33,283 bases of DNA. Source: a virus. A program made the position numbers and the translations under genes. Shown piece after piece: positions 8,530-31,793 of this stretch. Within the stretch, counting starts at the first letter, position 1. Each line of letters starts with the position of its first letter. The notes under the pieces were generated by a model. It did not search any database. It saw only the letters and a program-made list of their open reading frames with translations, and had not been told where the DNA came from. Location: IMG/VR virus record IMGVR_UViG_3300018426_000086, positions 1-33,283 of that record; one strand, 5' to 3'.

Positions 8530-10473
8530 TTAACCCATACGTTTTTTTCTGCGTGGATATGATTGCTTTGTATCATTGTAATTATTATAATGGAAATTGG
8601 ATCTAAATGCAGAGGAAGCTCTTTGTTTAGTGTTTCTTGTTACAAAATATGGGACGAATATTCTTTTAGTTGTTGATCCCCAAAGATCCATTACTTCGTT
8701 ACCACCGTTTTCGTATTGTCCCTCTTCAATTCTGTTGTAGGTTGATGCAGCATTATAGGTTCGTGGACCATAAAGTGCATTAGGTGGAGTAACACCCGCA
8801 TTAGAGTAATCAAACTCATTAGTACGTGCTAATGCATCAGCAGCACTGTTGGTTGTGGTGGGTGGCAGATCAAGCATAACTTCTTTACCATTTTTTTGCA
8901 TATAGTCTAAAAGTTGTTGATGTGTGGGGTATTCACCGAACGTATCAAAGTGGTAATCTACAAACAATGCGGCAGCACCCGCAGCTACTGGGGCAGCACA
9001 ACTAGTTCCACTAAAGTAATCCCACTCTCCATCAGGAAGAGTATAGCTACCTCTTCCAGTTCCACCTGCTGAAGACCAAGTGTATGCACCAAACGCCCAA
9101 ATGTCAATATGTGGACCACGATTACTATAAGGATCTGGTACAGGATTTATAGTACTGTGATGACATGCACCAATACTGTAGTGATTTAGACTTCCTACAG
9201 TACGATATGTTTTTGTATATCTTTGAAGATCTTGTGTTGTGTTAGTTTCGTATGTAAAATCATATAGTCCGTCAACATCTGTGAATGGACGGATCACATC
9301 GATATTCGCATCCATTTTAATGTAATCGTTCAGACGTGGATCACCAGCCTTAACAGACTGTGCACCACCAAAGTTACCTGCACTTTTAAAGTAGTATATG
9401 CTTCCATCACTAACCCAATTTGTAAGCATAGAGTTATAGGTACTACTAGGTATTTGGTATGGACACGAAATCCACCACTCATTTTGAGCAGTGGTTTGGT
9501 CATACGCAATCCTTGGCATCAAACCTGCATTGACAAAGGGAGTCAAATCAGAACCCCATCCACCCACTGGTCTCTGAACTGTTGTTAACATTCCATCGTC
9601 ATCATAGGAACCAATTTCATTGATGTCTTTAACTCTGTACATGTAGTTATGGTCTTCTCCACCATATCCCCATGCACCAGTGACAATGGTTGCATTTCTT
9701 CTACCAGTGACTGGATTAACTGGTTTCGTTTGGTGCCATGATAATACTGCATTATGCACTGTGGTTACACCATCAGAAAGATATATGACACGTATACTTG
9801 AAACCGCAGCCCATCCACATGTCTTGCCCGCTGCAGTACTTATAACACCTATTGCGTGATCTGAAAATCGATTACTATTAGTTATTTGATTGTTTCTTGC
9901 ATCATTTACAGAAGCACTAATATCAGACCAATCCATTCTAACAAACCTAGTGTTAGTAGTAGGAGTAGCGTCATCTTGAGAATCTGGGTGGTCTTCCCAA
10001 ACATCATTCGCTGCAACTGGCGTACCCGCTTCGATTGCAACGATGTCTACATATTCACCTGCATAGTTTCTAGTAATATTTTGATCTTCGAGATAAGCAT
10101 CTTCATTGAATGGACTAATTTGAAAAAATCCTATTGGACCTGAGTTTCCAGAAATCTCTTGGTCACTAGATAAAAACTTGAAAGTCGAAGTGATGTCTGC
10201 ACCATTTTGTGAAGTGATCCCAAATCTCGTAAGGTAATTAAAGTCAACATCAGTACGTACTGTATAAGTTTCTATAGGAACATCTTCTTTCTCTACTTCC
10301 ATGATACGGTCAGATGCACGTAATTCTTCAGCTTCTTCTTCAGTCAACATCATACAAACAAGACCTTCAAGTGCATCAAGTGTATCATACACTTCCATGT
10401 CACAACATTCTGTTTCCAAAACAGAATCCTGTTCTTCACAGTTGCAAAGGACGATGTTGTATCTAGATTTCAT
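8530..10473 (-). CDS. Subtilisin-like serine peptidase (S8) with I9-like propeptide
   Basis: A 647-residue protein in the baseplate block. Residues 1-66 resemble an inhibitor I9 propeptide (LTEEEAEELRASDRIMEVEK). The peptidase core has catalytic His206 in SDHAIGV, oxyanion Asn367 in KSAGNFGG and catalytic Ser491 in FSGTSCAAPVAAG. The DIWAFGAYTWSSAGG segment matches the SxG-x-DIWAPG region of the family. At the place of the usual catalytic Asp (V-D-x-G) the sequence is VDIVAIEAGT, so Glu148 replaces Asp. The C-terminus is basic (RRKKR). S8 peptidases do occur in virion gene blocks of marine T4-like phages; possible roles are maturation of fibres or degradation of host surface protein. It starts one base after the upstream gene's stop, so it is part of that operon. 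Activity is uncertain because of the Glu. Confidence 0.85.
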   Translation of the reverse strand: MKSRYNIVLCNCEEQDSVLETECCDMEVYDTLDALEGLVCMMLTEEEAEELRASDRIMEVEKEDVPIETYTVRTDVDFNYLTRFGITSQNGADITSTFKFLSSDQEISGNSGPIGFFQISPFNEDAYLEDQNITRNYAGEYVDIVAIEAGTPVAANDVWEDHPDSQDDATPTTNTRFVRMDWSDISASVNDARNNQITNSNRFSDHAIGVISTAAGKTCGWAAVSSIRVIYLSDGVTTVHNAVLSWHQTKPVNPVTGRRNATIVTGAWGYGGEDHNYMYRVKDINEIGSYDDDGMLTTVQRPVGGWGSDLTPFVNAGLMPRIAYDQTTAQNEWWISCPYQIPSSTYNSMLTNWVSDGSIYYFKSAGNFGGAQSVKAGDPRLNDYIKMDANIDVIRPFTDVDGLYDFTYETNTTQDLQRYTKTYRTVGSLNHYSIGACHHSTINPVPDPYSNRGPHIDIWAFGAYTWSSAGGTGRGSYTLPDGEWDYFSGTSCAAPVAAGAAALFVDYHFDTFGEYPTHQQLLDYMQKNGKEVMLDLPPTTTNSAADALARTNEFDYSNAGVTPPNALYGPRTYNAASTYNRIEEGQYENGGNEVMDLWGSTTKRIFVPYFVTRNTKQRASSAFRSNFHYNNYNDTKQSYPRRKKRMG

Positions 10474-11842: not shown

Positions 11843-11850
11843 TATTTATG
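11843..11850 (-). promoter_or_regulatory. Possible late promoter (CATAAATA)
   Basis: The minus strand reads CATAAATA, overlapping the stop codon of the upstream 986-residue gene and lying 28 bases before the fibre-like gene start at 11815. It is the same one-mismatch variant found upstream of the gp8-like and HNH genes. Confidence 0.5.
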
Positions 11851-14806
11851 TAACTGTAATTGTATTGTTCATACTACCATGGTTTGCACACTGATAGTAA
11901 TATGTTCCTGCAACTGCAGTCCACTGAAGAACTGCACCACCTTGTCCAGTTACATTTGGCAACTGGTTACCTGTTCCCGCACCTTGTGTCGTCTTCAGAT
12001 AGAACGGATGAGAACTTTGTGTACCACTGTCAATGTTAAATTGAACCCTATCACCTACATTGAATACTAATGGTGGTTGTGCACCATTGATGTAGTTTGT
12101 GGATCTATCTGCACCATTGATCACATAATCAAATATTGGTGTACTAATATTAATAGTGTGCGTTGGCGAGAAGTTCAATGATGTATCGTTAAGTGTATAA
12201 TCTGGTGATGTATACACAACAGGACCAACACCGCTACCAGTTCTTAGTGTAACGTGCCAAGTTTCTGCGCCTTCCGTGAAGTTGTCTGCAACTGCAGCCA
12301 CAGAGAAACCACCGACACCATTGTTCATGACAATATTACCAGATTGGAAGGAGAAGTCACTATCACGATCTGGTCTTGGACCAATCGCCCAATACAATGG
12401 AGTACCATTTGGCCATCCAGGCACAGAGACACTAAATGTTTTTGTTGCACCCTCATCCAATGATGTTGAACCAATTGGAGTAACGGTGTAAGTATAACTA
12501 CCACCACCACTAACAGATGAGTCATTATCAGATGTGACAACTTCTGTATCTGAAAAGATATTAGAAAAGTCAACAGTTAAGTTGTTAATATCACCAATAT
12601 CTAGTGGTGATGTAGACTCACCATCGTCATTAAAGATACGAAGGAATCTTTGTTTTACACCAGATTTTTCAGGACCTGCAGCAAACTTTCTTTGGTAATA
12701 GAATTTACCAAACATTTTTGTACCCGCAGTATGCATGTTTTCTCTTAAGAAGTCCTCATATACAGGTTGTCCCAACATACTACGGATCTCGTAAGAATAC
12801 TCTTGGTAGTAATCACTATCTTGAATTCTCATAGAAGAGTCAAAATACGCATAAGTATTTGCGCTATCTACTTCATAACCATTCAAGTGAGAAGTAAAGT
12901 CTGACCAATACCCCTCTGTAACACCTTGTGTTTCTGCAGTAATTGTACCCTTCGCAACACGAATATTGTTATTTGCAAGATATGCAGTTCCACCATTAAC
13001 ATATCCAAATCCTGAGTTGAATATTTTCGCAGATGCAATCTTACCTGTAGCGAACTGAACTTCCGCATCAATTTCTGCGTTGTCACCAAAGTTTCTAGAT
13101 TCGTAATCTCTTTCAACTCCTAAGATATTAAATCTTTGAGCGTTAGGTCTGATGACATCGTTTGTTCCTGTAAATCCATAGTATGCATAAGGCGTGAAAG
13201 TAACCGAACCAACTTGGGTGTTACTACTACGAACAATACCTCTAACATTTGTGTTAGCTTCTGTGATAATTTCACCAATATTAAACGAACCTGCAGATGC
13301 AGGAGTAGTCAACTGAATAATCTGGTCCTTACGATCAAAGATCATCATCTGACTATCTTGTGCAATCGCCCAAACATCGTTCGTGTAGTTGACGCCTGGA
13401 TCGACGTTTCTGAAGATATCGATTCTACCAATGTCGAAAGGTGTTAAGTCAAACGCTTCGTTCAATGGTGTTGCAAGTGTCACTGGATTTGCAGTACCAG
13501 ACATTGCTTGTCCTGCAGGCGGAACATCGTTGTAGTTAGAAGAGTTAATTAAAACATTAACGAATGGTTGGATTGGATCTGTGATGAGAGAAACAGTTTC
13601 GACATCGTCAATGACTGCAATGACTTGCGCATTCGCATCCTGTGGTACACCATCTGGATATAAAATACCAGGCGAACTAGAATTCTTATTGGTAATATCA
13701 GCATATAAAATATCTGTATTACCATAACTTCTACGACGAATCGTGGGAGATTGATCAGCATCAAACTCTTCACTGTCATTCATCTTTACTGCAAGTGCGA
13801 CCTCGTTGAACCCTGTAACAATACCTTCATTACCAAAGTTATCACCAATTGTTTCTCCAATTTCCCAATCTGTTGACTGAGACGATCCCGCAAGAATAAC
13901 AACTTGATCACTAACAAGTAATCTAGTATTTTCTACCGTGTATCCAAACCCACCATCAATATATTCATATTCAACATAACCTGTGATATCGTTTGTGATG
14001 CCAGTAACAATTGCACGCCCACCATAACCATAGGTTCCTTCAACTTCGAAAATATCACCTACTTCATTACCTGTGGTTGCGCCACTCCATCTTGTATCAA
14101 TGGTTATATCGTTCAGAGATCCATTAATTTTACCAAAGGAAACAGTTTCCCCGCCAATCTGACACAACACATCATCATATTTTACAAAACTACCTTGCAA
14201 GTTATCGATGTAAATGATTGGTGTAATAATGCCGTTCAACAAAACAAAGTTAATTTTGTTTACAGAAGCCTTTGCACCAGTTGTTGAACCTATGATGTTT
14301 CTTCCAAGTAAATCTAAGTAAGAATATTCAACGCCTGTTTTGGAAGAAAATTCGTTACTATTTGGAAACATCTGTAAGAAAGTACCAGTCCTCCAAGTCG
14401 ATGCCGATGACTTAAACATTTTTTGTGCAGGATAATAAACATCAATATCTTCTTGATAGAAAATTCTAAAGAAAAGTTTGATGCCTTGTTCTGTACCCTT
14501 TGAACGATACAAGTCCATAATGTTTTTAATAATAAAGGGGACTTGTGATTCTTTTAATGGTAGATCCGCAAGAAATTTTCTTTGCCAATGAATAACCATA
14601 CTCGACAATGTCGTAGAAATATCACGATATTCAAAAATTCTTCTGATGTTATAAACAGATTGATTTGTGTCTGTTTCTAAAAAGGCATAATAATCTTTGA
14701 CAAGTTGCACAAGTTCTGGTCCGAACTCTTTATAGAGTGCGGGGAACTGCGCATCAATGAAGAATGATATCTTCTTTAGAATTTCTGCTTGGTTATAATC
14801 TGCCAT
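11846..14806 (-). CDS. Large baseplate wedge protein (gp7 position) with Calx-beta-like and cupredoxin C-terminal domains
   Basis: A 986-residue structural protein directly after gp6, the position and size of T4 gp7 (1032 residues), though I see no clear sequence match to it. Residues 1-130 form a helical domain including DLYRSKGTEQGIKLFFRIFY, reminiscent of tail protein I-type wedge proteins of contractile phages. The middle is beta-rich. Residues about 770-880 look like a Calx-beta or Ig-like module (DEGATKTFSVSVPG, then DNFTEGAETWHVTLRTGSG). Residues about 883-986 form a cupredoxin-like domain with a complete type-1 copper pattern: His933 in SHPFYLKT, then Cys973, His976 and Met979 in YYQCANHGSM. 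The C-terminal modules are probably surface decorations. Late transcription with the rest of the block is likely. Confidence 0.75.
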   Translation of the reverse strand: MADYNQAEILKKISFFIDAQFPALYKEFGPELVQLVKDYYAFLETDTNQSVYNIRRIFEYRDISTTLSSMVIHWQRKFLADLPLKESQVPFIIKNIMDLYRSKGTEQGIKLFFRIFYQEDIDVYYPAQKMFKSSASTWRTGTFLQMFPNSNEFSSKTGVEYSYLDLLGRNIIGSTTGAKASVNKINFVLLNGIITPIIYIDNLQGSFVKYDDVLCQIGGETVSFGKINGSLNDITIDTRWSGATTGNEVGDIFEVEGTYGYGGRAIVTGITNDITGYVEYEYIDGGFGYTVENTRLLVSDQVVILAGSSQSTDWEIGETIGDNFGNEGIVTGFNEVALAVKMNDSEEFDADQSPTIRRRSYGNTDILYADITNKNSSSPGILYPDGVPQDANAQVIAVIDDVETVSLITDPIQPFVNVLINSSNYNDVPPAGQAMSGTANPVTLATPLNEAFDLTPFDIGRIDIFRNVDPGVNYTNDVWAIAQDSQMMIFDRKDQIIQLTTPASAGSFNIGEIITEANTNVRGIVRSSNTQVGSVTFTPYAYYGFTGTNDVIRPNAQRFNILGVERDYESRNFGDNAEIDAEVQFATGKIASAKIFNSGFGYVNGGTAYLANNNIRVAKGTITAETQGVTEGYWSDFTSHLNGYEVDSANTYAYFDSSMRIQDSDYYQEYSYEIRSMLGQPVYEDFLRENMHTAGTKMFGKFYYQRKFAAGPEKSGVKQRFLRIFNDDGESTSPLDIGDINNLTVDFSNIFSDTEVVTSDNDSSVSGGGSYTYTVTPIGSTSLDEGATKTFSVSVPGWPNGTPLYWAIGPRPDRDSDFSFQSGNIVMNNGVGGFSVAAVADNFTEGAETWHVTLRTGSGVGPVVYTSPDYTLNDTSLNFSPTHTINISTPIFDYVINGADRSTNYINGAQPPLVFNVGDRVQFNIDSGTQSSHPFYLKTTQGAGTGNQLPNVTGQGGAVLQWTAVAGTYYYQCANHGSMNNTITVT

Positions 14807-14809
14807 TTA

Positions 14810-15712
14810 TTAGTATCCACTGCTTCCACCTTGGGATGATGAGTAAACAGATCCACCTGCACTGCCTGAACTTCCGCTACCACCAGTTGTTCTCGTGATA
14901 ACTCCACTTGCATCTGGAGCATCAAGAATTACTGGATCTTGTGCACTATTTTGAATTCCTGCAACAAGCTTATTGTCCAAGTACACATTAACACGAACAT
15001 CTTCGTCACGAATTAAGAACACTCGTCCGTTAGGTGAAGTGATGTCATCTTGTTTTGTATTTGCATAAATTTTAATTGCAGCGCCTGGATAACTCTCTGT
15101 TTCAAAGTTAACCAACTTAACGTCACCTGTTTCATAGTTTACTGTACCCGCACTTGGGTTTACAATCTGTGGATTTGAAACATCATCAGTAACAATCTGA
15201 ATATTACCTTGACCATCGTCTTGGAAAAATACACAAATTCCATTTTGATCAAAGACACTAGAAACAATTGCAGGAGTGTAGTTTGTAAATCCCTGCGATT
15301 GATTGTATGCATATGGACGAATTAATTCAGTACCAAATACAAATCTTGGGTTATATAACTGATTAATTGTTGGTGAGAATTCAATAATAGGTTTTGCTTT
15401 TATAGCATTACTATCAATAGCAGTGTCGATGTCATTCAATTCTTTCGACAATCTTGAAAGTCTTAATTTAGATTTAAATTTATTCAAATTATTTGTAGAG
15501 TGTTTCGATACCACATCTCTAACCAACGATTCGATTTGATCGCCAGATTTTTCTGTTTCTTTTTGAGTATAATAAACATTAATATTCAGATCTGCATACA
15601 AGAATTCTGTTTTAACAAAGAATGGTTCAATCGTCAATGGTGTACGGTTCTTCAAGAATTCGATGTACGAGTTTGCAAGTGTCTGAGAAATCAACTGTGC
15701 ATTGTCATTCAA
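14810..15712 (-). CDS. 6: Baseplate wedge gp6, C-terminal fragment after in-frame amber codon
   Basis: This 300-codon segment continues gp6 in exactly the same frame as the preceding gene: reading straight through the TAG at 15740-15742 gives DELAQP-stop-FGKVAISVYLNDN, as in an uninterrupted gp6, where a YGKV-type strand follows the YGGD/E segment. The only possible initiator near the front is a TTG at 15712, without a convincing ribosome binding site, and no ATG codon occurs in the remaining frame. Independent translation is therefore unlikely. The segment carries RTPLTIEPFFVKTEFLYADL, typical of the gp6 domain that joins wedges into the inner ring, and a Gly/Ser-rich tail. It is either made by amber suppression or readthrough, or the codon is a mutation or sequence error. 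N- and C-parts together approach the full length of T4 gp6 (about 650 residues). Confidence 0.75.
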   Translation of the reverse strand: MNDNAQLISQTLANSYIEFLKNRTPLTIEPFFVKTEFLYADLNINVYYTQKETEKSGDQIESLVRDVVSKHSTNNLNKFKSKLRLSRLSKELNDIDTAIDSNAIKAKPIIEFSPTINQLYNPRFVFGTELIRPYAYNQSQGFTNYTPAIVSSVFDQNGICVFFQDDGQGNIQIVTDDVSNPQIVNPSAGTVNYETGDVKLVNFETESYPGAAIKIYANTKQDDITSPNGRVFLIRDEDVRVNVYLDNKLVAGIQNSAQDPVILDAPDASGVITRTTGGSGSSGSAGGSVYSSSQGGSSGY

Positions 15713-15739
15713 ATAAACACTGATTGCAACCTTACCAAA

Positions 15740-16771
15740 CTATGGCTGTGCCAGTTCGTCACCACCATATGCAGAAACCGCATTAATCTCTGGGAACTCT
15801 TGTTTCAAAAGGATCTCATAGTCATTGGTTGTGATCGCTCGATCTTGAATCTGCAATGCTTTTGGTGCATTAGTTTTGATGCTATCGATAGATTCTCTTT
15901 CCGCACCACCTGAAGCTGCTTGCACCGTAGTCACGGTGATCTGCACATTAGATAAGAAAGAAGATGTGAATTTATTTGCACCATTCGCTTCTGGTCCACT
16001 TGTAATACGGTAACGTACTTTCACGTCTTCGAATTCTGATGGTTGTAGACCGAATACGTTACCACCAAAGTAAATGTTGTAACGGTTATCAAAATAAGGT
16101 TCTAGATAGAATACTTTGTCGGTTGGTCCCACCCCAAAAATATCTGTTCTGTATGTAAAGACGTTCTGGTCTTCTGTTGCTTCTGCGTCGATAAAACAAA
16201 CGATAGAGTCTGTATCCACTTCTGGGTTAGAGAGTGCAACACGCAGAACTCCGTTATCATCAACAAGGAAACCTTCACGTTCGAAAGAAGCAAGGACTTC
16301 ACCCTCAAAGATTTCTATATCTCCCGACTCCCATACATTCGGTGCAGTTTTACGTGCAACATACGTTTCATTAGTCACGAAGTTATATGTTGTTCCCAAA
16401 AACGATGTTGTGAACTCAGTATATGTCGGAATAACGACAGTCTGGTCTGTAATAGTTCCCTGTGGATCGTCAATACGAACACGAACAACCGCTTTTGGTG
16501 ATTTGCGAGAACGAGGCAGATAGTTGAGTTCTTTTGCATGTGAGATTACAGAGTTGCGCAAAATCGCTGAGTCAAGAAACATCTCAGATATTGCCATGTT
16601 GGTGTAGAAGTTATTATGATATGTGTTGTATGCGAGGACATCCAACAACACACTCATGTTTGACCCTTCAAAGTTATAGTCTTTGAATTGCGTTTGTGAT
16701 CTTAAGTAATCTTTGAGTTGATCCTTGGCTGCTTCAAAGTCAAGTTCAACTATTGGTGTTGGAGTCGCCAT
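15740..16771 (-). CDS. 6: Baseplate wedge gp6, N-terminal part ending at an in-frame TAG
   Basis: The 343 residues match the N-terminal half of T4-type gp6, the dimeric wedge protein that forms the inner baseplate ring. Characteristic pieces are FEAAKDQLKDYLRSQTQFKD near the start, LLDVLAYNTYHNNFYTNMAI near residue 45, and the gpJ-like LLKQEFPEINAVSAYGGDE at the end. Family members normally continue for another 300 residues; here TAG at 15740-15742 interrupts the frame and the remainder follows without frame change. Its start lies directly after the gp25 stop (overlap-like junction at 16771-16774), so the pair is co-translated. TAG is rare as a stop here: among the complete genes only the HNH nuclease clearly uses it. 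Confidence 0.85.
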   Translation of the reverse strand: MATPTPIVELDFEAAKDQLKDYLRSQTQFKDYNFEGSNMSVLLDVLAYNTYHNNFYTNMAISEMFLDSAILRNSVISHAKELNYLPRSRKSPKAVVRVRIDDPQGTITDQTVVIPTYTEFTTSFLGTTYNFVTNETYVARKTAPNVWESGDIEIFEGEVLASFEREGFLVDDNGVLRVALSNPEVDTDSIVCFIDAEATEDQNVFTYRTDIFGVGPTDKVFYLEPYFDNRYNIYFGGNVFGLQPSEFEDVKVRYRITSGPEANGANKFTSSFLSNVQITVTTVQAASGGAERESIDSIKTNAPKALQIQDRAITTNDYEILLKQEFPEINAVSAYGGDELAQP

Positions 16772-17188
16772 TTATCTTGTCCTCTCTAATATCACATCAA
16801 GCGTGATTGGCTGTTCTCTGTTACTGATGTAAAATCTTACATTAACATATACTTCGTTTTCATCTAAAGAACCTGCGGCGGTGACATCAATAATGTCTGC
16901 ACGTGGTTCATATATTTCCAGTGTAGTTTGGACACGATCTTTAATCAGTTCTAATGTTGCAGGTGTAAGATTTTCAAAAAGAAGTTCTTTTAGTCCCGCA
17001 CCAAGATAAGGTTGCATTAAACGTTCACCACGATCTGTCAACATAAGGTTACGCATAGCTTCTTTGACTGCGTCTTCATCTCTTGTGACCGCAAGATCAT
17101 CTGTTAAAAGATTAATCTCTAAATCCTTTTTAAAGTCAGAATAAAGATTAATCTTTTTTGTTTGTGGTGTAAAAACATTTAATGTCAT
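16772..17188 (-). CDS. 25: Baseplate wedge protein gp25
   Basis: A 138-residue protein of the gp25/GpW family, the small wedge subunit that docks gp6 and templates sheath polymerisation; it has structural relatives in type VI secretion (TssE). The sequence shows the family features: an N-terminal SDFKKDLEINLLTDDLAV, the LTDRGERLMQPYLGAGLKEL block around residues 50-70, and the conserved EPR motif in LEIYEPRADI near residue 92, followed by the final beta strands. T4 gp25 is 132 residues, so this is full length. It is located between the M15 peptidase gene and gp6, as expected for a 5-25-6 order with one insertion. Confidence 0.93.
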   Translation of the reverse strand: MTLNVFTPQTKKINLYSDFKKDLEINLLTDDLAVTRDEDAVKEAMRNLMLTDRGERLMQPYLGAGLKELLFENLTPATLELIKDRVQTTLEIYEPRADIIDVTAAGSLDENEVYVNVRFYISNREQPITLDVILERTR

Positions 17189-17194
17189 TTTACT

Positions 17195-18907
17195 TTACCT
17201 TGGGTTTCTTTCTACAGTATCTATGTGAACGAAAGAGTTGTATCTTTTGATAAATTTAAATCCACATCTCCTTGCATCATCAATAAACTTCGACCTACTC
17301 CAATTTCCCCACGCAACATCAATTGCATTTCCTTGCATGTGTTGTGAGTTCCATGCTACACCATAGTTCCAACCACGCCCTTCAGTGTATGTTCCACGAG
17401 ACTTACCTTGTCTTCTGTATCTTTCTCTAAGTGCCGCTTGATATTGTTCACTTCTAAATCCACTATTGATAGTCAACTTTGCACCAGTTAGTCCTTGCAG
17501 TCTCATAAGTTTTGCTTTCACATCTGGATTTATACCAGTCCATCCTCTTTCTCCCATACCCGAAGTGAATGCAATTCTTGGATGGTTTCCATCCTTAATT
17601 TCATCCCAAGTAGGTATGTCCCCAAACTCACTAGGTAGTGGTGGGTGGGGATTGTTTGGTGCTTCACCAGATGGTGTGTGGTGTTGTGATGGTGCAGCAT
17701 CAACTTCTCCGCCACATCCACCATAAGTATCTGGTAGTCTTGCAGGGTTACTTACTGTAGGATCTGTCGGTTCGTCTTGTGGATTGTCGTTTGTTCCTGT
17801 ACTTGGGGGCGCTTGCCATTGTTCTCTCATTCTATTTATTTCAGTTTGTCGAGTTTCAGAATCAAAACGAACTGCACCTGCACTGACCGCAGCTGCAGTA
17901 GCTAAGTTGGAAACTCTTTCTAAACGACCAACAATTCTTTGATACTTAAATGCATAGTTGTCCATTGGTGTTTTGATGTCTTTAATCAACGCTTCAATGT
18001 TTGACACAAAAGCACAAAATCTTGCAATCAAAAACTGAATTTCTTCCAAAGATGGATTAGAGAAAAGTCCAACCGCATAATCAAAAAGTGCTTTTACCTT
18101 TTCAACCAAACCCTCTTTATTTTCGTCTGTAAGAATGGCAGAAATGTCATCTTTAATCTGTGCAGCTTTTGCAAATACCTTTTCGTTGATGTATGTTTTT
18201 ATTTCACCAATAGTTTCTTCAAGATCAAAGTTTTTAACTGCATTCACTACCGACTCAAAAGTTTCTTCAATAACCTGACCCACTTTTTCTTTAATAGATT
18301 CGATAAGTGCTTTTACTGTTATCTTTTCAATGATCGCTTTAATCGGATCTTCAAGGTTTCTAATTTTATTTAAGAATGCAATTGCATCATTGATGAGACC
18401 TGCAACAGAACCAATAATAGTAAAGAAACCACCAATTGCGCCAAATACCTGAGGCATCATACTACAAAATCCACCAAGAATACTTGAATTAGGATCTTTA
18501 TAATATGAATTCAAATTTTTTAATAGGTTCAAGTCTGCAAGTGTAGACGCAGTTTTAATCTTAGGTGGGGTGTAATTATACGCACCACAAAAGTCTGCGA
18601 ATTCAATTGTGGAAATAGGGCCCTTTTCAAATCTTTCCAACACTTCAGGATAGTCTGTTAATTGACTTCCACTTAAAAAGTTATTAAAATCTGTTAACGA
18701 TTCATAAAATGCATTTCCATGAAGAGAAACTTGAAGATCTACAGGATCAGTTAAACTGTCTGTTTTGATCCCTTCTAAGAATTCTGCTTTATAATTTTCA
18801 ATAGCATATACGTTCAGTTCCCCACCATTACTGATGGGAGCACCGCCAAGTCTCTGTCTGGACTGATATATCTGATCGTTTAAGTCAATACAATTACTTT
18901 TTGCCAT
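17195..18907 (-). CDS. Baseplate-associated M15-type peptidoglycan peptidase
   Basis: A 570-residue protein with a long helical N-terminal part (about residues 1-330, including amphipathic stretches such as KALIESIKEKVGQVIEET), a disordered Pro/Asn/Gly-rich linker (about 340-430) and a C-terminal peptidase M15 domain. The domain shows NSGFRSEQYQAALRERYRRQ and the zinc site SQHMQGNAIDVAW with H523 and D530, plus H561 and D563 in VHID. M15 enzymes cut peptide cross-links or stems in peptidoglycan (D,D-carboxypeptidase or L,D-endopeptidase). The gene sits between the gp5-like spike and gp25, and the spike lacks the T4 lysozyme domain, so this is a good candidate for the virion wall-piercing enzyme. 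The cleavage specificity and the attachment site on the baseplate are not visible. Confidence 0.85.
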   Translation of the reverse strand: MAKSNCIDLNDQIYQSRQRLGGAPISNGGELNVYAIENYKAEFLEGIKTDSLTDPVDLQVSLHGNAFYESLTDFNNFLSGSQLTDYPEVLERFEKGPISTIEFADFCGAYNYTPPKIKTASTLADLNLLKNLNSYYKDPNSSILGGFCSMMPQVFGAIGGFFTIIGSVAGLINDAIAFLNKIRNLEDPIKAIIEKITVKALIESIKEKVGQVIEETFESVVNAVKNFDLEETIGEIKTYINEKVFAKAAQIKDDISAILTDENKEGLVEKVKALFDYAVGLFSNPSLEEIQFLIARFCAFVSNIEALIKDIKTPMDNYAFKYQRIVGRLERVSNLATAAAVSAGAVRFDSETRQTEINRMREQWQAPPSTGTNDNPQDEPTDPTVSNPARLPDTYGGCGGEVDAAPSQHHTPSGEAPNNPHPPLPSEFGDIPTWDEIKDGNHPRIAFTSGMGERGWTGINPDVKAKLMRLQGLTGAKLTINSGFRSEQYQAALRERYRRQGKSRGTYTEGRGWNYGVAWNSQHMQGNAIDVAWGNWSRSKFIDDARRCGFKFIKRYNSFVHIDTVERNPR

Positions 18908-23620: not shown

Positions 23621-23635
23621 CCTATTGAGTAAATC

Positions 23636-23643
23636 TATTTATA
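23636..23643 (-). promoter_or_regulatory. Late promoter TATAAATA (leftward, gp48 operon)
   Basis: A perfect T4 late octamer on the minus strand, 37 bases upstream of the gp48 start. The predicted transcript start is near 23630, only a few bases from the predicted start of the opposing rightward transcript. Confidence 0.8.
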
Positions 23644-23663
23644 AACAAAAAGTGAAATTGGTT

Positions 23664-24122
23664 ATGGCATACAATGGTAGATTCCGTCCAAAGAATCCGA
23701 AAAAGTATAAAGGCGACCCAACTAACATCATATATCGTAGTTTATGGGAGTTGAAATTCTTTAAATGGTGTGATGAACATCCAGATGTAAACTGGTGGCA
23801 GTCAGAAGAATTGATTATTCCCTACAGATCACCTGTGGACAATCATATTCATCGATATTTTCCTGATGTTATTGTGAACAGAAAAGATCGTGATGGTAAC
23901 TTAAAGACAGTTGTGGTTGAAATAAAACCATACAAACAAACGTTACCACCAGATCCTAGAAAGAAAAACGCAACTCCTACAGGACGTGTGTCTCGTAGAT
24001 TTCTAAACGAAGTCAAGACTTGGGGGATCAATGATGCAAAGTGGAAAGCAGCAAGAGAGTATTGTGCAAAACGTGGTTGGGAGTTTGTCATCATGACAGA
24101 AAAAGAACTAGGGATAAAGTAA
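23664..24122 (+). CDS. 4: Head completion nuclease gp4
   Basis: A 152-residue protein clearly related to T4 gp4 (150 residues), which is needed to finish DNA-filled heads before tail joining. The start is placed at ATG 23664 because MAYNGRFRPKNPKKYKGDPT aligns with the T4 start MAYSGKWVPKN; an upstream TTG at 23627-23625 frame would add 13 unmatched residues. Other conserved blocks are YRSLWELKFFKWCDEHPDVN, the PD-(D/E)XK-like core PDVIVN with VVEIKP, and RRFLNEVKTWGINDAKWKAA. It is the first gene of the plus-strand late operon, under a TATAAATA promoter at 23613-23620, and its TAA overlaps the next ATG (TAATG). Confidence 0.92.
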   Translation: MAYNGRFRPKNPKKYKGDPTNIIYRSLWELKFFKWCDEHPDVNWWQSEELIIPYRSPVDNHIHRYFPDVIVNRKDRDGNLKTVVVEIKPYKQTLPPDPRKKNATPTGRVSRRFLNEVKTWGINDAKWKAAREYCAKRGWEFVIMTEKELGIK

Positions 24123-26737: not shown

Positions 26738-28564
26738 ATGGCTATCAGTAAAGAAACAGAAGCGATTATTGAACGTCTAAAAGCAGAAGGACAGTTGACC
26801 CGCAATAGCGGTAGTCACTCAATTCGTTCTGTCAAAGTGCAACTTGAAAAGTTCGAAGGTGTATTCAATACGATTTCTGCAAACATAACTGAACAAACTG
26901 ATATGTTACGTGCTTCTATGGGTATTCAAGAAGAGGCGATTGAGGCACAAAAACGTGCAAACGATCTCGCAGAACTTCAACAACCACCCGAACCAACACC
27001 TACACCAGAACCAGAAACAACAACACCAGAAAAACCTACTAAAGAAAGTAAAGGTCTTTTTGAGATGATGGGTGGGTTTGCATCAACGTTACTTGGAATA
27101 GGAACAAAACTTGCACTTGGTGGCGCAGGACTATTTGTTGCATATAACTTTGCAAAAGGTGCAATCGACGAAGCGACTGGTGGTGGTTTTAGTAGATTCG
27201 AAGATAGTATGATCACAACCTTCCGAGAGGTAGACTGGTCTGCGTTAGGAACATCTTTTAAAGAATTTGCATCAAAAGTACCAGAAGCAGTTACTTCAAT
27301 TGTCGAATTTCTGTCAGACCCTCTTACTGTCATTCTCGCAGGTGCAGGACTAACTGCAGCAGGTATTATGAGTGGGTTTGGTGGAGGCGCACTTGCACGT
27401 GGCGTGACCCAAGGTATTATCTCTGGTGTATTAGGTACAGGCGGAGATCCAAGAGGTCCAAACCAAAGGGGCGGCGGCCGTGGACTTTTCAAACTACGTA
27501 ATGTCGCACGTGCGGGCGCATTGGGTATCCTAACAGGCGCACTTGCTTACTACGGTGAAGATGTTAAAAACTGGTTAACGGAACAAGGCGTTCCAGAAGA
27601 TTGGGCAGGCGTTGCGGTAGATAGCACAATAACGATTGGTCAATTTGCAACACTAGGTGCAATGTTTGGTCCAACTGGTGCGCTTGTGGGTGCAGCCGTT
27701 GGTGTTGCGTATGTAATAGGTAAATCTCTTTATAATTGGTTCCAAGACTCAAAAGCTGCAGCACAAGCACAAGCACGTGCGGAAATCGCTGCTCTTGATC
27801 CTTTTGAAGCAACAGAAGTCGCAACAGGTGGTGCGACTGGTGGACTGGATCTGGGTGCAGTTGGTGGTGTTGGTGCATTAGACGGCGCAGAAGTAGCCGT
27901 ATCACTAGGTGAAAGAATTGCTGCAAGTGGCGACCTTGCAAGAATTGTACAGGGTTATAAAGATAACCCAGACAATGCAATGGTTCAGGAATCGATGATG
28001 GCATTCATGGAAAACATGGCTGATATTATTGACAATGAAGAATCAACCCAAGAACAACGAGAACAAGCGTTAGCAAATCTACAAGCACTAAATTCAGCAT
28101 TTCCTGAAATCAGAACACAATTAGAATCTATGACAGGATTTGGCGCTAATGAAGCAAGACTATTCTTTAATGACAATATTGTAGACTTTATGCAAAGTCT
28201 ACAAGAGGATTATGGATTTAGATATGGTACAAGAGGTTTCAGAAATTTCGGTAGTGGTCAACTTGCAATTCTACATGGTAGAGAAGCAGTTATCCCTGAA
28301 GACACCGCTGCAGGACAGTTTGTAAAGAACTTCTTTAATGAAGATTACACCCCAAGAAGATTGTCTACACTCAGTTCAGAAATAGTAAATGCAGTAGAAC
28401 AGTCTGGTATGAACGGTAGTGGAATGTCTGTTGTTATTGGTAAGATGGGTGGCGATAACTATGTCACTAACCAGACAACCAGAATGGGTGACCAGAATAT
28501 CGCAGATGTTAAGTACATCGGGGGAGGTGGTGGAGACACCAATCCTCTCGCACTACCAAACTAA
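26738..28564 (+). CDS. 29: Tail tape measure protein, gp29 position
   Basis: A 608-residue protein, close to T4 gp29 (590 residues), the hub-associated tape measure that sets tail length. Residues 1-80 are helical and coiled-coil-like, followed by a Pro/Glu/Thr linker (PPEPTPTPEPETTTPEKPT). Between residues 105 and 330 are several Gly/Ala-rich hydrophobic stretches (TLLGIGTKLALGGAGLFVAY, and FATLGAMFGPTGALVGAAVG), typical of tape measures that may insert in the host membrane. The C-terminal part contains GFRNFGSGQLAILHGREAVI followed by Pro, a motif common in tape measures of many phages. It starts at the ATG abutting the chaperone gene's stop. Its stop overlaps that of the convergent HNH gene. 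Confidence 0.82.
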   Translation: MAISKETEAIIERLKAEGQLTRNSGSHSIRSVKVQLEKFEGVFNTISANITEQTDMLRASMGIQEEAIEAQKRANDLAELQQPPEPTPTPEPETTTPEKPTKESKGLFEMMGGFASTLLGIGTKLALGGAGLFVAYNFAKGAIDEATGGGFSRFEDSMITTFREVDWSALGTSFKEFASKVPEAVTSIVEFLSDPLTVILAGAGLTAAGIMSGFGGGALARGVTQGIISGVLGTGGDPRGPNQRGGGRGLFKLRNVARAGALGILTGALAYYGEDVKNWLTEQGVPEDWAGVAVDSTITIGQFATLGAMFGPTGALVGAAVGVAYVIGKSLYNWFQDSKAAAQAQARAEIAALDPFEATEVATGGATGGLDLGAVGGVGALDGAEVAVSLGERIAASGDLARIVQGYKDNPDNAMVQESMMAFMENMADIIDNEESTQEQREQALANLQALNSAFPEIRTQLESMTGFGANEARLFFNDNIVDFMQSLQEDYGFRYGTRGFRNFGSGQLAILHGREAVIPEDTAAGQFVKNFFNEDYTPRRLSTLSSEIVNAVEQSGMNGSGMSVVIGKMGGDNYVTNQTTRMGDQNIADVKYIGGGGGDTNPLALPN

Positions 28565-29073
28565 CCCAAATACATTTCCCAACTAGGATGTTTCAGTTCG
28601 ACATTGTCGATCTGTTTCTTTTTGCGTACCAGTTCGTAGTAGCCTGGTTCGTGTGGTTTAATTTTGGGGGAGATAAGTTTGTCGCCTTTTTTGGTATTAC
28701 AGGGTCCACATGCGGCGACGATGTTTTCCCAATGTGTTTTCCCACCTTTGGATATGGGGAGTACATGATCTAAAGTAAGGTAACTCCGTGGAAACCGTTC
28801 GAAACAATATTGACAAGTGTACATGTCTCGAATATAAAGGTTCGTCTTGGAAAACCGAGGTCTACCCTTCTTCCGCATCATTTCTTTCATCATGATTACG
28901 GCGGGGACCTTGGTTTCCCAACTGGGACTTCGAACCATCCAGTCGTCGTACCAGTCTAAGACATGCACCTTATCCATCCACATGTAGGTGATTGCGTCTT
29001 TCCATTTGATAGTACTTAGAGGTAAAAAGTTTATAGGTTGACCGTCTGCATTAAGTACCAGAACATCGGACAC
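28561..29073 (-). CDS. HNH endonuclease
   Basis: A 170-residue HNH nuclease. An N-terminal domain (SDVLVLNADGQPINFLPLST, then WKDAITYMWMDKVHVLDWYD) of the kind seen in stand-alone bacterial and phage HNH proteins precedes the nuclease core. C87 and C90 (YTCQYC) and C122 and C125 (ACGPC) form a zinc site; D102-H103 (LTLDHVLPISKGG) and N117 (HWENIV) are the HNH catalytic residues. Translation starts at GTG 29073, supported by AGGAG seven bases upstream. The stop is TAG, one of very few in the window. It may be a homing-type free-standing nuclease or a host-DNA or packaging nuclease; the lack of an intron favours the former or an accessory role. A late-promoter-like octamer lies at 29109-29116. 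Confidence 0.88.
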   Translation of the reverse strand: MSDVLVLNADGQPINFLPLSTIKWKDAITYMWMDKVHVLDWYDDWMVRSPSWETKVPAVIMMKEMMRKKGRPRFSKTNLYIRDMYTCQYCFERFPRSYLTLDHVLPISKGGKTHWENIVAACGPCNTKKGDKLISPKIKPHEPGYYELVRKKKQIDNVELKHPSWEMYLG

Positions 29074-31349: not shown

Positions 31350-31793
31350 TTAGTCTTCTGTAAGGAAAGACTTTTGAATGTTGGTGTTAATACCAATAGT
31401 ACGTGGACGTTTCTCTTCTGGAATAATTCTTTCCAGACGAATTGTCAACATACCATCTTCCAAAACCGCATCTTGAACAATAATGTCATCCGCAAGCGTA
31501 AATTTGCGAGTGAACTTACGACCAGAAATACCACGATGGATATATCCTTCATCATCAGTTGACTTGTCCTTATCACCAGTAATAGTCAAGACACTTTCTT
31601 GATATTGAATATCCAAGTCTTCTTCCTTGTAACCTGCAAGCGCAAGTTCAATTCGGAAGTCAGTATCCGTTCTCTTTACAATATTAAATGGTGGGAAACC
31701 TGTTGCTTGATCTTGATGGTCAAAAATTCTGTCGATCATACGATCAAAGCCAACAGCATATGGTGATAGTGTATTAAAATGTGCTCTATTCAT
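31350..31793 (-). CDS. hsp20: Small heat shock protein Hsp20 (IbpA-type)
   Basis: A 147-residue Hsp20/alpha-crystallin chaperone. The N-terminus FNTLSPYAVGFDRMIDRIFD matches the LSP-x-GFDR start of class A bacterial proteins such as IbpA. The alpha-crystallin domain spans about residues 36-128 with FRIELALAGYKEEDLDI, the I-x-G-D-K loop and, at its end, DGMLTIRLERIIPEEKRPRT (the G-x-L-x-I motif and the IPEExxPR tail). Such chaperones bind unfolding proteins; hsp20 genes are widespread in T4-like cyanophages and relatives, where they are thought to help virion assembly or stress survival. It has AGGAG before the ATG, a perfect late promoter at 31854-31861 and a terminator right after the stop, so it is a single-gene late transcription unit. 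Confidence 0.95.
   Translation of the reverse strand: MNRAHFNTLSPYAVGFDRMIDRIFDHQDQATGFPPFNIVKRTDTDFRIELALAGYKEEDLDIQYQESVLTITGDKDKSTDDEGYIHRGISGRKFTRKFTLADDIIVQDAVLEDGMLTIRLERIIPEEKRPRTIGINTNIQKSFLTED

Follow-up and report, generated by a model that had tools for sequence, protein, structure and literature searches.

A four-base cluster private to one contig, most likely a local consensus error, places an amber codon in the gp6 gene of an environmental phage

The 33,283-base linear virus fragment analysed here (the window) carries a gp6-type baseplate wedge gene whose frame is interrupted by an amber codon, which raises the question of whether the phage reads through this codon, makes a truncated or divided gp6, or has an intact gene that the contig misrepresents. 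The initial annotation had placed the TAG on the minus strand in gp6, and we found it there (Table 1). When the codon is read through, the protein gives a full-length gp6 profile match (phrog_219, E = 5e-137, residues 3–594), and its match in the PDB is T4 gp6 (5hx2, E = 2e-29). The 309-codon part after the TAG, taken separately, has a weak match to PF21871 that falls below the cut-off. The gene lies between those of gp25 and gp7, as judged from a neighbour match and from the gene order of Sinorhizobium phage phiN3: the downstream gene (11846–14806) matches a baseplate wedge family (phrog_17744), and the upstream open reading frame (ORF; 16772–17188, 138 codons) is taken as a putative gp25 gene by its place, as in phiN3.

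Table 1. Features of the gp6 locus, in window positions
Feature	Coordinates	Strand	Details
gp6-type baseplate wedge gene	14810..16771	minus	653 codons including one internal TAG; ATG at 16771, TAA at 14810
N-terminal open frame	15743..16771	minus	343 codons; gp6 helical domain PF21379 retained
In-frame TAG	15740..15742	minus	codon 344 of 653; sole internal stop of the gp6 frame
Cluster of four window-private substitutions	15740..15754	minus	15742, 15747, 15750, 15754; codons 340–344
Codons 3' of the stop	14810..15739	minus	309 codons; no in-frame ATG; matches most of T4 gp6 C-terminal half

Several other genes of the window were also noted. Next to the putative gp25 gene, 17195–18907 encodes a peptidase M15 domain, as does the corresponding gene of phiN3, and a tail-fibre-type gene (8530–10473, minus strand) that encodes a subtilase (Peptidase_S8) domain lies among the baseplate genes. 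What looks like a gap of 866 bases, bounded by the tail-tube-cap gene and the DNA end protector gene, is mostly occupied by an ORF of 165 codons with a TTG start (23625–24122, plus strand), which by place and look may encode a T4 gp4-type head completion protein. A 608-codon ORF (26738–28564, plus strand) has no Pfam or PHROGs match, and its only relatives in the IMG/VR scan are same-strain contigs (4 loci, 100% identical); an HNH endonuclease gene follows it directly on the opposite strand. A gene for an Hsp20 small heat-shock protein (31350–31793, minus strand; PF00011) matches a phage Hsp20 family.

We asked what could be made from the frame beyond the TAG. The initial annotation had held reinitiation to be implausible on the grounds that there is no ATG downstream and only a TTG with a poor ribosome-binding site. 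The ATG is indeed absent, and the first in-frame TTG after the stop, at 15712, has no Shine–Dalgarno-like sequence, but "only a TTG" slightly understated the candidates, as 14 TTG or GTG codons and one CTG lie further along the frame. With no ATG, no ribosome-binding site and no relative in which the gene is split, we rejected both reinitiation and an arrangement of two genes.

Scanning IMG/VR with the read-through protein yielded 80 loci. Four of these belong to same-strain or near-strain contigs that overlap the window, namely L003 (99.79% identical over 13,959 bases), L002 and L011 (both 99.75%) and L004 (95.8%); with five more near-identical contigs added (L090, L096, L170, L171 and L172), every part of the window was covered by one to five relatives. 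The alignment with relatives that the initial annotation had recommended proved informative, revealing no stop among the 80 and exposing a cluster of four base changes. The gp6 frame, interrupted in the window, was intact in 80 of 80 relatives; an apparent internal stop in L017 was rejected because it is the natural end of the gene. At codon 344 the relatives have glutamine (CAG or CAA) in 79 cases and lysine in one. Codons 342 and 343 specify proline in all 80, so that codons 342–344 read P-P-Q in 79 and P-P-K in one, and residue 341 is E, D or N. The PPQ motif is also found in phiN3 (40% identity) and in Caulobacter phage Cr30 (35%). A scan of contigs from metagenome-assembled genomes added five gp6 relatives, labelled Rhodobacteraceae (three contigs), Bacteroidetes and Sphingobacteriales; four of these have PPQ at 57–59% identity, and the distant fifth (31%) has PPE. 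Going by these labels alone, the host may belong to the Rhodobacteraceae. Nor did any of the 80 relatives encode gp6 as two genes, an arrangement that had been named as evidence against an amber reading. A search by sequence pattern for TAG at the equivalent codon returned 13 contigs, none of which has gp6 at that place.

The amber codon is not an isolated difference. Against the four overlapping IMG/VR contigs, which agree with one another at this site, encode glutamine there and keep gp6 intact, the window carries four substitutions in 13 bases, all private to this contig and located at conserved codons. One is silent (codon 340), two are missense (E341A and P342Q) and one is nonsense (Q344*), turning the conserved L-(E/D)-P-P-Q into L-A-Q-P-stop. 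A single C-to-T lesion converting CAG to TAG, which had been offered as one explanation, is contradicted by the three further private changes within the adjoining 12 bases; that account is incomplete because the TAG belongs to a cluster of four differences that set the window apart from all close relatives. The substitutions fall at codon positions 1, 2, 2 and 1 and comprise two transitions and two transversions, as would be expected of unselected noise, and at this strongly constrained site the stretch bears no trace of purifying selection.

When the 21 private changes of the window were placed at random over its 33 kb, four in 13 bases were never reached in 200,000 trials, although this test is too generous when taken by itself, since short clusters of differences that are real and mostly silent are present in the population. 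Such clusters separate contigs that are 99.75% identical and appear in varying combinations (13481–13507, 13382–13406, 15929–15938 in L002 and L004, and 10143–10147), which suggests recombination over very short tracts, or mutation that is locally clustered, in the phage population. Some of them, for example those at 13481–13507 in L003 and 13382–13406 in L090, have no known donor. The one at 10143–10147 was considered as a second private cluster and rejected: it is shared with L004 and is therefore real polymorphism. As natural clusters exist, clustering alone is no proof of an artefact. The cluster in gp6 is distinguished by its effect on a conserved protein motif, which is altered by three of the four changes, including one that introduces a stop. 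The other 17 private changes in the window are 14 silent, two missense (D/E and M/I) and one non-coding; the excess of amino-acid changes in the cluster over the other private coding changes gives a Fisher p of about 0.03, from few changes. Elsewhere in the 33 kb there is no other frame break and no comparable cluster; the rest of the contig is clean, so this is not a generally poor assembly.

Because every close relative has an intact gene, the TAG most likely reflects an error of sequencing or assembly at this spot, or otherwise a dead genome, and no novel mode of decoding. We favour the first explanation, with a probability of roughly 0.7: the amber codon is part of a local consensus error in this contig, and gp6 is intact in the phage itself. 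We infer that the phage itself lacks the four changes and that they came about during sequencing or assembly. In such a scenario, four erroneous and unselected bases within 13 positions would have created the TAG by chance; they could derive from a read end of low quality or poor coverage, or from a local assembly fault. Sequence error was among the four options listed in the initial annotation and is the best supported of them, but as a cluster of four bases and not as a single wrong base.

A real lethal lesion ranks second and is unlikely, though the cluster would also fit it: clustered mutation, whether from recombination with unsampled sequence, from error-prone repair or from a complex template switch, would have truncated gp6 and left a genome that is defective or complemented by a co-infecting intact phage. 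An unselected-looking cluster is also what a dead genome would show, and short clusters of true differences are common in these phages. Against this, an allele that is lethal because it disables a virion gene would not be expected to prevail as a population's consensus, and the allele was found in no relative. We searched the surrounding 800 bases and the whole window, on either strand, for a template and found no convincing match with all four new bases; template switching or duplication as their source was therefore rejected. A donor allele was sought through the 13-base core of the cluster, which is absent from all fetched loci, and through a 20-mer of the window, which occurs in no other IMG/VR contig, although this test does not discriminate because the natural clusters also lack donors in the loci at hand.

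Readthrough, suppression and a split gene are, even taken jointly, very improbable. Amber suppression or recoding of TAG to glutamine by a phage or host tRNA would yield full-length gp6, and it is consistent with the intact frame of 309 codons after the TAG and with the identity of the replaced residue, glutamine being what TAG encodes in code 15 phages (PMC11210395). In phages predicted to use code 15, gene lengths are affected genome-wide and 52% have a Sup-CTA tRNA (PMC11210395). The window has neither the many in-frame TAGs at glutamine codons nor the disuse of TAG as a normal stop that characterize this code. As proposed in the initial annotation, we counted in-frame TAGs and found one in 10,360 codons, against 389 glutamine codons (97 CAG and 292 CAA). 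TAG is nearly unused as a stop, as had been stated, serving 1 of about 30 genes (23 end in TAA and 6 in TGA); the exception is the HNH gene (28561–29073), whose next in-frame stop lies 33 codons further on. Recoding was rejected on these stop and codon counts. The window itself yielded no tRNA gene, and a search with tRNA families found none in the same-strain overlapping contigs that extend past it (59.4, 22.0 and 22.0 kb); among five more distant related contigs, one has a tRNA, a tRNA-Glu, and the other four have none. No suppressor tRNA with a CUA anticodon was found in the window or in the eight related contigs searched; the genome is incomplete, about half of code 15 phages have no such tRNA, and one may be encoded elsewhere. 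Suppression would, in addition, leave unexplained the pair of missense changes beside the stop, which affect conserved residues. We regard it as a very remote prospect.

Equally remote is programmed readthrough or a natural split, which would give a short (343-residue) and a long gp6, or two subunits. The stop maps about 36 residues into the C-terminal fragment of T4 gp6 that was crystallised on its own (residues 334–660), and therefore roughly near a domain boundary. A functional signal should persist among phages that are 99.75% identical, and this one does not: neither stop nor split is conserved in the close relatives (0 of 80), and a second gene would have neither an ATG nor a ribosome-binding site. 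Amber suppression and regulated readthrough, both raised in the initial annotation, are thus unsupported, with TAG not recoded and no suppressor tRNA in the sampled sequence. Also very improbable is a real population with the amber codon that can produce full-length gp6 solely in natural amber-suppressor hosts, its virion assembly being host-dependent.

A functional amber codon here would mean a rare suppression-dependent structural gene in an environmental T4-like phage. With a consensus error as the preferred explanation, the locus instead offers a lesson: when one metagenomic contig shows a lone in-frame stop, near-identical contigs should be consulted before recoding is called, a comparison that here turned one odd codon into four clustered private changes.

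The window resembles TAG-recoded phages (code 15, for example some Crassvirales; PMC11210395, PMC9523058) in having TAG where relatives have glutamine. It differs in that those phages are recoded genome-wide and about half have Sup-CTA, whereas the 33 kb examined here contain a single in-frame TAG and our searches turned up no Sup-CTA. The read-through protein is homologous to T4 gp6 (PDB 5hx2 and 5iv5; C-terminal part 3h2t) over residues 8–457 and shares its gp6-like helical N-terminal domain (PF21379), but the copy in the window is broken where T4 Gly370 aligns, so its product would lose almost the entire C-terminal half, the part responsible for the inter-wedge dimer. The T4 baseplate has the gp6 ring as its backbone; the N-terminal domain pairs with one neighbour and the C-terminal domain with another, and if a component is missing, wedge assembly halts at the preceding step (PMC3004832). 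If the stop were real, gp6 function would probably be lost without readthrough. The best matches among named phages are the gp6 proteins of Sinorhizobium phages phiN3 and phiM12 and Caulobacter phage Cr30 (35–40% identity, 90% covered). The window has the gene order of phiN3, namely peptidase M15, wedge subunit, gp6 and wedge subunit, and, unlike in the window, gp6 is uninterrupted in all three phages.
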